Assembly: GCA_002067315.1 (NCBI GenBank)
Contig: MVRA01000061.1
Location: forward strand, 1 to 55,432
Reading direction: 5' to 3'
From: Methanocella sp. PtaU1.Bin125
GTDB lineage: Archaea > Halobacteriota > Methanocellia > Methanocellales > Methanocellaceae
Length of the DNA: 55,432 nucleotides
The notes beneath the pieces were generated by a model. The model saw nothing but the letters and a program-made list of their open reading frames with translations. It was not told the origin of the DNA and ran no database searches. A program made the position numbers and the translations under genes. Every line of letters starts with the position of its first letter. The stretch's first letter is position 1. Positions 11,452-14,157 of this stretch are shown piece after piece.

Positions 11452-11799
11452 TAAGACCGTGAGAGAGGAGGGACGGCCGCCGCCGTTGACCGGCACGAAG
11501 GTGCCTCAGGTCAATGGTGAGGAAAGTCCCCCCACCGCCTGGACACACAAATGTCTGCAAGGGCATACGGCGAGAGTCGTGGCAATGTCACAGAAACGCT
11601 ACGGCCGCGCGTCAATGCGATGATTCGGCGACGATGAGGTCGCGCGCAGGCCGATGAAACGGTCAATCCTTGTGGGTGCAAGCTGAAGCGGGCCTGTTCG
11701 GGAAGTCCAGTCCCGGCCCCGGTTATAGCGCATAGATGAATGCCGTCGGCCTTCGGGCCATGAACACAAGGGGGCTTACTATCCCCACTCACGGTCTTA
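11452..11799 (+). ncRNA. rnpB: RNase P RNA (archaeal type A)
   Basis: This is the catalytic RNA that matures tRNA 5' ends. The outer helix P1 closes the element: AAGACCGTGAG at the left end pairs with CTCACGGTCTT at 11788-11798. Conserved region I is visible as GAGGAAAGTCC (11519-11529), conserved region IV as ACAGAAA (11590-11596), and a CR-V-like GGGGGCTTACT stretch lies near 11770-11780. The length, about 347 nt, fits archaeal type A RNAs. It sits just upstream of the KaiC/GTPase operon and carries its own TATA box. Confidence 0.93.
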
Positions 11800-11902: not shown

Positions 11903-12589
11903 ATGCGCAGGTATAATCTGGGCTTGAAAGAGCTTGACGAGGAGATCGGCGGCATCAGAAGCGGGGCCAATATCTTGCTCATCGGCCCTGCCATGTCCGG
12001 CAAGAATGCGGTGCTCAACAGCATCATGTCCTGTGGCCTGCAGAACGGCGAGGCCATCGTGCTGGTCGAGACACGCGTCCCGGGAGCCGAGGCGCTCGAG
12101 AAGCTCGATCTTCACGGATCGTCTCACATCGGCGTCGTCGACTGCGTTGCCCGGACGCTGGGCGTCAACGCGAAAGACACGCCCAGCATCAGGCACGTGT
12201 CCAGTCCCGTCGACCTGACGGGCGTCGGGGTGCGGGTGAGCCAGCTCATGGAGGACTTCGGCCGGGTGAACGGCGGCGAGGCGCGGCTGTGCGTCGACTC
12301 GGTCTCGACCATGCTGATGTATTCGAACCTCCAGGTCGTGTTCCGTTTCCTGCACGTCATGGCCGGCCGGGTCGCCCTGCAGGGCGACCTCGGCATATAC
12401 GTGGTGGACGAAGGCATGCATGACAGTCAGACCATCGCCACGCTGAAACAGCTTTTTAACGCGGTGCTACAGGTGAAGGTCGAGGACGACCGCACATACA
12501 TCAGGGCTGTCGGGCTAACGCCGCGCCCGACCTCGTGGCTGGAGTACGAGATCGTCGGCCAGGCGGCCGCGATCAGGAAGTCGTCATGA
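11903..12589 (+). CDS. KaiC-like RecA-superfamily ATPase
   Basis: A 228-residue single-domain protein of the KaiC/RadA-like ATPase group. The opening NLGLKELDEEIGGIRSGANILLIGPAMSGKNAVL is the KaiC family pattern (x-G-hydrophobic-ELD-x-x-x-GG-x-x-x-G). The P-loop at 28-35, GPAMSGKN, has Asn where Ser/Thr normally coordinates magnesium, so ATP hydrolysis may be altered. A Walker B-like strand is seen in GEARLCVDSVSTML. I choose the ATG at 11903 because the family begins there; the frame is open to 11810 without a homologous extension. Its stop overlaps the next gene's start (ATGA). KaiC-like proteins act as molecular switches in archaeal motility and signalling. Confidence 0.8.
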   Translation: MRRYNLGLKELDEEIGGIRSGANILLIGPAMSGKNAVLNSIMSCGLQNGEAIVLVETRVPGAEALEKLDLHGSSHIGVVDCVARTLGVNAKDTPSIRHVSSPVDLTGVGVRVSQLMEDFGRVNGGEARLCVDSVSTMLMYSNLQVVFRFLHVMAGRVALQGDLGIYVVDEGMHDSQTIATLKQLFNAVLQVKVEDDRTYIRAVGLTPRPTSWLEYEIVGQAAAIRKSS

Positions 12590-13782
12590 TCAAGACGGGC
12601 ATTGCCACGCTGGACGAGCAGCTGAAAGGCGGGATACCGATCGGCAAGACCCTCGTCTACTTCGTCGCCCCCGGCGTCAACGGCGACGTGTTTACCCTCC
12701 AGGCGGTCTACTCGGACCTGGTCGAGAACGGAGTCTGCTATTACGTGACCAGCAACTGCGCCCCGGACGTCGTGCGGACCGGTTTCCGGGAATACGGCTG
12801 GGACCTGACGCCCCACGCGGCCCGGTTCGCCATCGTGGACGGCTATTCGGGGCAGCTCGGTGTCCCCTCGCAGGAGACCTTCGTGGTCGACGACCCGGAG
12901 AGCATCGCTTCGGTGGACCGGACGATCATGGCGATCATCGAGACGCTGTCGCCGGGAGACATGATCGTCTTCTCGTCGCTGGCGACGATCTTCGACAAGT
13001 GCCGGAACGAGAGCACCGGGCAGTCCATCCTCGACTACGTGAGGAAATGGAACAAGATGGCCGTGCTGAACGGCGGTGTCGTACTCTACAGCTTCGCTGA
13101 CCGGGGCTATGACCGGGAGCTGACTGACCAGATCAAGAACGGCTTGTGCAACGCTTCCATCCTGGTCGGCGGCGTGGGCGGCGGGCACATCTACGGAGAC
13201 TATTTCAAGCTGCACACCTGCGACTGGGCCCGGCCCCCGGAATGGCCCACGCCCTACAAGGTCATCAAGCCGGGCGGAGTCAGGGTATACATCCCGAAAA
13301 TTCTGGTCACGGGCCCGAAGGGCTCCGGCAAGTCGACCTTCGTCCGGACGGCGTCACTCCTCTCGTCAGGTAAGGCGGTCTCCGTCGACCGGGCCGGGAC
13401 CACGGTGGCGCTCGACTACGCGAACGTCACGCTGCAGGGCTTTACCATCGACATTTTCGGCACCCCGGGACAGGCGCGGTTCAACCCGATCCTGAAGACG
13501 CTCGCCAGGGACGCGATCGGCGTCGTGCTGGTCGTGGACTCGACGGACGCCCGGAGCTTCGACCGGGCCGTGGAGATCCTCAAGATTACCTGCGGGAAGA
13601 AGACGCCCTACGTCGTGGCCGCGAACAAGCAGGACCTCCAGGGCGCCATGGACCCGGAGACCGTCCATAAAAAGCTCGAGATGCCCGGGGACGTACCCGT
13701 GCTCGGCACCTGTGCCCTCGACCCGGCCAGCGTGGTGGAGACACTGGAAGAGATCGTCCGGAAGATCGTGGAGGTGCGCTAG
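12586..13782 (+). CDS. KaiC-like domain fused to a Ras/MglA-like small GTPase
   Basis: A 398-residue fusion. Residues 1-230 repeat the KaiC-like fold of the preceding gene (TGIATLDEQLKGGIPIGKTL), but the P-loop position (about 28-36, APGVNGDVF) has lost the GK-S/T signature, so this half is probably inactive as an ATPase. Residues 237-398 are a complete small GTPase: G1 GPKGSGKST (243-251), an SVDRAGTT switch I region (266-273), G3 DIFGTPGQ (289-296) and G4 NKQD (347-350). The TTVALDY...LFGTPGQ style resembles the MglA/CvnD group of bacterial GTPases, whose partners are Roadblock proteins, and a Roadblock gene follows directly. The start at 12586 overlaps the previous stop. Confidence 0.85.
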   Translation: MIKTGIATLDEQLKGGIPIGKTLVYFVAPGVNGDVFTLQAVYSDLVENGVCYYVTSNCAPDVVRTGFREYGWDLTPHAARFAIVDGYSGQLGVPSQETFVVDDPESIASVDRTIMAIIETLSPGDMIVFSSLATIFDKCRNESTGQSILDYVRKWNKMAVLNGGVVLYSFADRGYDRELTDQIKNGLCNASILVGGVGGGHIYGDYFKLHTCDWARPPEWPTPYKVIKPGGVRVYIPKILVTGPKGSGKSTFVRTASLLSSGKAVSVDRAGTTVALDYANVTLQGFTIDIFGTPGQARFNPILKTLARDAIGVVLVVDSTDARSFDRAVEILKITCGKKTPYVVAANKQDLQGAMDPETVHKKLEMPGDVPVLGTCALDPASVVETLEEIVRKIVEVR

Positions 13783-14157
13783 ATGCCCGTCACTGAGCTG
13801 GACCAGGTGCTGGCCGACATGAGGCGGGCCGGTGGCATCCGGGCCATCGCCATCGTGTCCCGCGACGGCATCCTGATCGCCTCGGACATGCCCGCGGAAA
13901 TCCATCCCGAGACCTTCGCCGCAATGTCCGCCATCATACTGGGCGCGGCCGAAACGGCGGCGCTGGAGATCAACACCCCGGCTCCCGATCGCATCATTGT
14001 GGAGACCGACGAGGGCCGGCTGGTCGTGTCAGGGGCCGGCGAGCGGATGATGCTGGTCGCGCTGGCAGAAGCGCAGGCGGGCCTGGGGCACGTGATCGTC
14101 GAGATGAGCCGCGCTGTAGACCGGATCAAAGAGCTCTTCGGTGAATCTCCTGGATAA
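13783..14157 (+). CDS. Roadblock/LC7 domain protein
   Basis: A 124-residue Roadblock/LC7 protein. The pattern is typical: an N-terminal helix (ELDQVLADMRRAGGIRAIAIVSRDGILIAS), a central helix rich in Ala (AAMSAIILGAAETAAL), the strand RIIVETDEGRLVVSGAGERMMLVAL and a C-terminal helix. Such proteins dimerise and bind Ras-like GTPases, often as activating proteins or platforms (MglB for MglA). GGAGGTG lies 6 nt before the ATG, inside the end of the GTPase gene, so expression is coupled. Its likely partner is the GTPase domain encoded just upstream; that pairing is inferred from gene order. Confidence 0.88.
   Translation: MPVTELDQVLADMRRAGGIRAIAIVSRDGILIASDMPAEIHPETFAAMSAIILGAAETAALEINTPAPDRIIVETDEGRLVVSGAGERMMLVALAEAQAGLGHVIVEMSRAVDRIKELFGESPG

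Follow-up and report, generated by a model that had tools for sequence, protein, structure and literature searches.

A widespread archaeal gene trio encoding a pseudo-KaiC domain fused to an MglA-type GTPase, a second KaiC-family protein and a Roadblock protein

The three genes and their folds

Region 11903-14157 of contig MVRA01000061.1 from Methanocella sp. PtaU1.Bin125 (hereafter, the window is the whole analysed stretch of 55,432 nucleotides) carries three co-directional genes on the + strand, whose ends overlap or abut. Gene 1 (11903..12589, + strand) encodes a DUF7504-family protein of 228 amino acids with a KaiC/RecA fold, predicted to be a partner subunit on the basis of its profile (PF24336), its structural model and its conserved position beside gene 2. 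Gene 2 (12586..13782, + strand) encodes a chain of 398 amino acids in which a pseudo-KaiC domain is fused to an MglA-type small GTPase, as assigned by Pfam, TIGR00231 and the model, and gene 3 (13783..14157, + strand) encodes a Roadblock/LC7 protein of 124 amino acids, a predicted GAP/GEF-type GTPase regulator by its PF03259 match and by comparison of its family profile with the PDB. The open reading frames of genes 1 and 2 share four bases, ATGA (12586..12589, + strand), through which the two genes are likely to be translationally coupled, and gene 3 starts at the first base after the stop codon of gene 2. The linkage of a KaiC-like gene, a KaiC-GTPase fusion and a Roadblock gene, which the first-pass annotation had proposed, was thus confirmed by coordinates, Pfam profiles and models. 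An archaeal RNase P RNA gene (window 11461-11790, + strand; RF00373, 184.7 bits) lies directly 5' of the module, and also adjoins it in four relatives (loci L037, L038, L039 and L040).

The gene 1 product matched DUF7504 at 96.3 bits (cut-off 27), and its score for the KaiC family of Pfam was 17.8 bits, under the cut-off of that family. Its AlphaFold model (mean pLDDT 93.4) has the RecA/KaiC fold, and the best-fitting single-domain PDB entry was PH0284 (2dr3, target TM 0.71-0.77). The Walker A motif is degenerate (GPAMSGKN, 11984..12007, + strand): in the alignments, Asp, Glu or Asn takes the place of the Ser/Thr of GK[ST] in most relatives, GKD or GKE being the usual form and GKN that of the window. 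Gene 1 relatives of several Archaeoglobaceae and of locus L147 have an intact GK[ST], and in such lineages the gene 1-family protein looks ATP-competent from its sequence. The nearest relative (G001) lacks gene 1, and no close copy was found elsewhere in its genome.

The N-terminal domain of gene 2 (residues 1-212, 12586..13221, + strand) matched KaiC (PF06745) over residues 2-154 at 49.6 bits. In Foldseek comparison of the AlphaFold model (mean pLDDT 89.8), its closest single-domain PDB match was again the KaiC-family ATPase PH0284 (2dr3, target TM 0.84); two-domain KaiC entries gave slightly better E-values than 2dr3 with much poorer superpositions. By this comparison of the predicted model, the RecA/KaiC fold is present in the fused domain.

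Retained GTPase motifs and a lost Walker A motif

At the former P-loop of the fused domain (VAPGVNGDVF, 12664..12693, + strand), the window has APGVNGDVF at the Walker A position, with no GxxxxGK[ST]. This motif was absent from all 93 aligned homologues (the window, 12 sequences from genomes and 80 from contigs, with at least four sequences entering twice), most of which resemble the family consensus xxPGVEGxVF at this position. Judged from these sequences, the fused KaiC domain has lost ATP binding in its usual mode. Its mean column identity in the alignment is 0.55, as compared with 0.74 for the GTPase domain, a level indicating that the dead domain has been retained and is not freely decaying.

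The GTPase domain (residues 236-395, 13291..13770, + strand) matched Arf, Ras and small_GTP (TIGR00231) at 44.4, 38.8 and 52.6 bits, respectively, and its best PDB match by sequence was MglA (3t12, E 6e-8). All motifs lie on the + strand and are seen in the alignment: G1 or P-loop GPKGSGKS (13312..13335), G2 Thr272-Thr273 (13399..13404), G3 GTPGQ (13459..13473) and G4 NKQD (13624..13635). The TT in G2 is that of MglA groups 2-5, with no intrinsic Arg finger; according to PMC4316618, these groups have GTPGQ in G3 and, next to the G2 Thr, a Thr and no Arg. The features of MglA group 1, namely an Arg finger in G2 and TVPGQ in G3, are absent from the fused GTPase in the alignment. Across the 93 homologues, which come from several archaeal phyla, G1 GxxxxGK[ST], G2 TT, G3 GTPGQ and G4 NKxD are retained with few exceptions. 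T272-T273 was invariant in an alignment of 52 sequences, and AT was found instead in two loci of the wider alignment (L153 and L156), which also have GIPGQ in G3; other G3 variants were GTPGH (L039), GTPGE (L048), GTPSQ (L129 and L137) and GTVGQ, GTIGQ and GTTGQ (L147-L149), and G4 was altered in a few homologues. From these motifs, we infer that gene 2 carries a GTPase domain able to bind and hydrolyse GTP.

These results divide what the first-pass annotation had said of the nucleotide sites. Its label 'KaiC-like ATPase' holds for the fold, given the match to 2dr3, but not for the ATP site, which reads APGVNGDVF in the fused domain and GPAMSGKN in gene 1, and its idea of one chain housing both an ATP-switch and a GTP-switch fold is, as a statement on function, not supported, the Walker A motif being missing in 93/93 sequences. 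For the same reason, the energy-state sensing that it suggested is unlikely for the fused domain. In a broader form of this idea, ATP binding by the KaiC proteins would gate the GTPase, and the module would integrate the levels of both ATP and GTP; in its strongest form, ATP would be bound by a separate KaiC partner and not by the fused domain. This form can draw on the gene 1 relatives with intact GK[ST] in several Archaeoglobaceae and L147, on the GPPKTGKS of the partner in a paralogous module (L180 and L181) and on an additional upstream KaiC with an intact Walker A motif in some Thermoproteota-type loci. However, the fused domain lacks a P-loop in every sequence inspected, and gene 1 has GKN in the window and GKD or GKE in most relatives, so that an ATP-sensing role is not general. 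We therefore regard the energy-state sensor as an unlikely account of the module, while energy sensing by the partner is possible in the lineages with intact GK[ST].

Distribution, gene order and the probable Roadblock partner

Among 60 whole genomes searched, 13 contained the full fusion, that of the window included. In a profile search of 393 genomes from the phylum, 69 contained proteins matching almost the entire KaiC-GTPase model (counted manually from the table of matches, leaving out many proteins that matched over the KaiC or the GTPase part only). An alignment-based scan of GTDB contigs confirmed at least 545 relatives; a query with the single protein had returned no confirmed relative from these contigs. 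The best 80 of the at least 545 relatives were all archaeal by record title, and covered Methanoperedens, Methanosarcinales/ANME-2, Archaeoglobaceae, Methanocellales, Alkanophagales, Altiarchaeota, Nano- and Woesearchaeota, Undinarchaeales, Bathyarchaeota, Hecatellales, Thermoproteota and Thermoplasmata, these names being taken from titles of records that are mostly metagenome bins and can be wrong. Only 7 of 250 genomes around the Bathyarchaeota locus had full-length matches, indicating that the module is widespread but patchy. Since the fusion is widespread and its G-motifs are intact, it is neither confined to this locus nor accompanied by a general disruption of the GTPase in its relatives, and the proposal of an archaeal switch module gains support. 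In a tree of 107 GTPase domains, the 91 fused ones were set apart on one branch (support 99/98, found in 100% of 200 bootstrap trees), suggesting that the fusion probably arose once. As the stand-alone GTPases in this tree were only 16 archaeal sequences of the same phylum and long branches drew a warning, a single fusion event is likely but not proven.

In 57 of the 80 contig loci, the genes for DUF7504, the fusion and Roadblock follow one another in this order on one strand, and permuted arrangements were also seen, with Roadblock leading, gene 1 at the end or gene 1 on the opposite strand. Of the 80 loci, four showed just genes 1 and 2 and two just gene 2, some of these lying at contig ends. 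Across loci, the reading frames of the module overlap or nearly abut, the distances being taken from open frames and not from start codons. A paralogous second module was seen at L180 (832-3094) and L181 (2414-4676) in the order Roadblock, fused gene and separate KaiC-like gene, in which Walker A is missing from the fused KaiC domain and intact in the partner. At L158 (764-1474), L159 (2682-3392) and L160 (714-1460), the fused gene is immediately preceded by an extra KaiC gene with an intact Walker A motif (GEAGAGKTTF or GETGTGKTTF), and at L166 (1081-2368) and L167 (479-1729) a stand-alone MglA-type GTPase has Roadblock genes on both sides.

The gene 3 product matched Robl_LC7 (PF03259) at 54.2 bits (cut-off 23), and the profile of its family matched PDB chains of MglB as well as CvnB5 (3leq). 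The Asp28-Gly29 pair (13864..13869, + strand) is near-invariant in the family, and a D-G pair is reported in PMC4316618 to be conserved among the Roadblock partners of MglA groups 2-5. According to PMC11016934, MglB has both GAP and GEF activity on MglA. A Roadblock gene lies no more than 2.5 kb from the fused gene in 74 of the 80 contig loci. In six distinct genomes (G012, G074, G080, G111, G140 and G395; G407 is the same as G140 by coordinates), the sole Roadblock gene detected at the search threshold adjoins the fused gene, although some of these genomes are drafts, in which a second copy was possibly missed. In genome G003 (locus L039), a single open frame, 568 codons long from stop to stop, spans pseudo-KaiC, GTPase and Roadblock; as this frame was seen in one genome, a sequence error at the stop codon is possible. 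The pairing of the GTPase with the Roadblock protein, taken from gene order in the first-pass annotation, therefore has a wider basis in the linkage conserved through permuted orders, the single-Roadblock genomes and one natural fusion, and by analogy the Roadblock protein probably controls the fused GTPase. No adjacent Roadblock gene was found in the Methanomicrobiales-like families f11, f14 and f22, whose genomes have Roadblock genes elsewhere. The Methanomicrobiales-like loci L044-L048, L179, L182 and L183 keep genes 1 and 2 with no Roadblock gene found alongside.

Beyond the trio, no neighbour was found to recur across lineages, as judged from BLAST-linked clusters, most of which were named without a profile. 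Within lineages, Methanoperedens-type loci (such as L083, L104 and L108) have downstream YhbY-like, ribosomal S19e-like and PDCD5-like genes, identified by eye, in 23 to 35 loci, and the next gene in the Methanomicrobiales-like L044 and L048 is, by eye, one for diphthine synthase. The idea that the module is a housekeeping GTPase system linked to translation or the ribosome draws on such neighbours, together with the RNase P RNA that adjoins it in the window and four relatives. The neighbours vary by lineage, however, none being common to several, and the protein-coding ones were named by eye; moreover, genes of these kinds are common and conserved, which makes chance proximity plausible, and we consider a translation link very improbable.

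The resemblance of the GTPase and the Roadblock protein to MglA and MglB also raises an MglAB-like role in polarity, as in Myxococcus, with the module placing pili or archaella, in line with the earlier suggestion that it positions surface structures. This suggestion did not find support: no motility or pilus gene was seen to recur beside the module, pilus genes being judged from the neighbours only, and 7 of 25 carriers checked (24 distinct genomes, as the coordinates of G388 and G403 are identical) had no ArlH match, while the match in an eighth was under the family cut-off. We thus hold such a positioning role to be improbable. A link to the archaellum in particular was considered and ruled unsupported by the ArlH-negative carriers.

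A probable GTP-only switch and its relation to known systems

The reading that we favour, at a probability of roughly two in three, is that the module works as an MglA-type switch driven by GTP alone and under Roadblock control, in which the pseudo-KaiC domain serves as scaffold and a second KaiC-family protein as partner. GTP would be bound and hydrolysed by the GTPase domain of gene 2, as its motifs suggest, and a Roadblock dimer would dock on this domain and control its cycle as GAP and/or GEF, as MglB and the linkage suggest. The N-terminal KaiC-like domain, whose nucleotide site is lost, may act as a scaffold or effector arm, and the gene 1 product would most likely associate with gene 2 by RecA-type contacts and relay an input or output signal. 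We favour this mechanism because the G-motifs are kept and Walker A is lost, and because of the retention of the dead domain, the linkage, the single-Roadblock genomes, the G003 fusion, the single clade of fused GTPases, the match of the Roadblock profile to MglB and CvnB5, and the paralogous modules of L180 and L181. The points against it are families f11, f14 and f22 without a Roadblock neighbour, G001 without gene 1, and the altered G-motifs in some members.

Like bacterial MglA/MglB, the module combines a small GTPase with a nearby Roadblock gene, as the 3t12 match and the match of the Roadblock profile to MglB reflect; here, however, the GTPase shares its chain with a pseudo-KaiC domain, a second KaiC-family gene stands alongside, and TT in G2 and GTPGQ in G3 are found where MglA group 1 has its Arg finger and TVPGQ. 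With MglA group 4 and other stand-alone archaeal MglA-type GTPases, as described in PMC4316618, it shares GTPGQ, Thr beside the G2 Thr and a canonical G4. That survey (Wuichet and Sogaard-Andersen 2014, PMC4316618) dealt with single-domain GTPases and gave no conserved neighbours for group 4, whereas the GTPase here is fused to KaiC throughout its clade and has conserved neighbours; in our tree the fused GTPases are separate from the 16 stand-alone archaeal ones. The Streptomyces conservons (CvnA-D) likewise have a GTPase and a Roadblock protein in one operon, GTPGQ and, in CvnB5 (3leq), a match to our Roadblock profile. In contrast to them, profiles detected no kinase among the three genes of the recurrent module, which has KaiC-family proteins instead, and G4 is canonical NKxD, from which MglA group 2 deviates according to PMC4316618.

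Archaeal KaiC-like signalling proteins, including the inactivated iKaiC, were treated, according to PMC5847659, by Makarova, Galperin and Koonin (2017); iKaiC resembles the fused domain in that both are archaeal KaiC-fold domains which have lost the ATPase site and are linked to further signalling components. In keyword-matched passages of PMC5847659 and PMC4858521, a KaiC-GTPase fusion is not mentioned. Asgard GTPase-Roadblock fusions and eukaryotic Rag GTPases have the GTPase joined in cis to Roadblock (PMC10933270, PMC11016934); such an arrangement also occurs in L039, where Roadblock extends the KaiC-GTPase chain at its C-terminus, but no KaiC domain is described for Asgard or Rag proteins in those papers. 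A keyword search of the literature, screened at the level of titles and abstracts, found no paper describing the fusion or an experiment on the module, although Makarova et al. 2017 may already describe it.

More tentatively, and with somewhat less than even confidence, the trio may represent an ancient and widespread archaeal complex that relies on two KaiC-family proteins, one or both of them dead, to scaffold a Roadblock-controlled MglA-type GTPase, as an unrecognised counterpart of MglAB, the conservons and Rag-Ragulator. GTPase-Roadblock pairs are shared by polarity systems in bacteria, conservons in actinobacteria and Rag/Ragulator signalling in eukaryotes. If this picture is correct, it would add an archaeal branch to the history of such pairs, in which a pseudo-enzyme is fused to the switch across several archaeal phyla, and would offer a tractable three-protein system. 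It would also provide a clear case for the signalling role that has been proposed for inactivated KaiC proteins in archaea.
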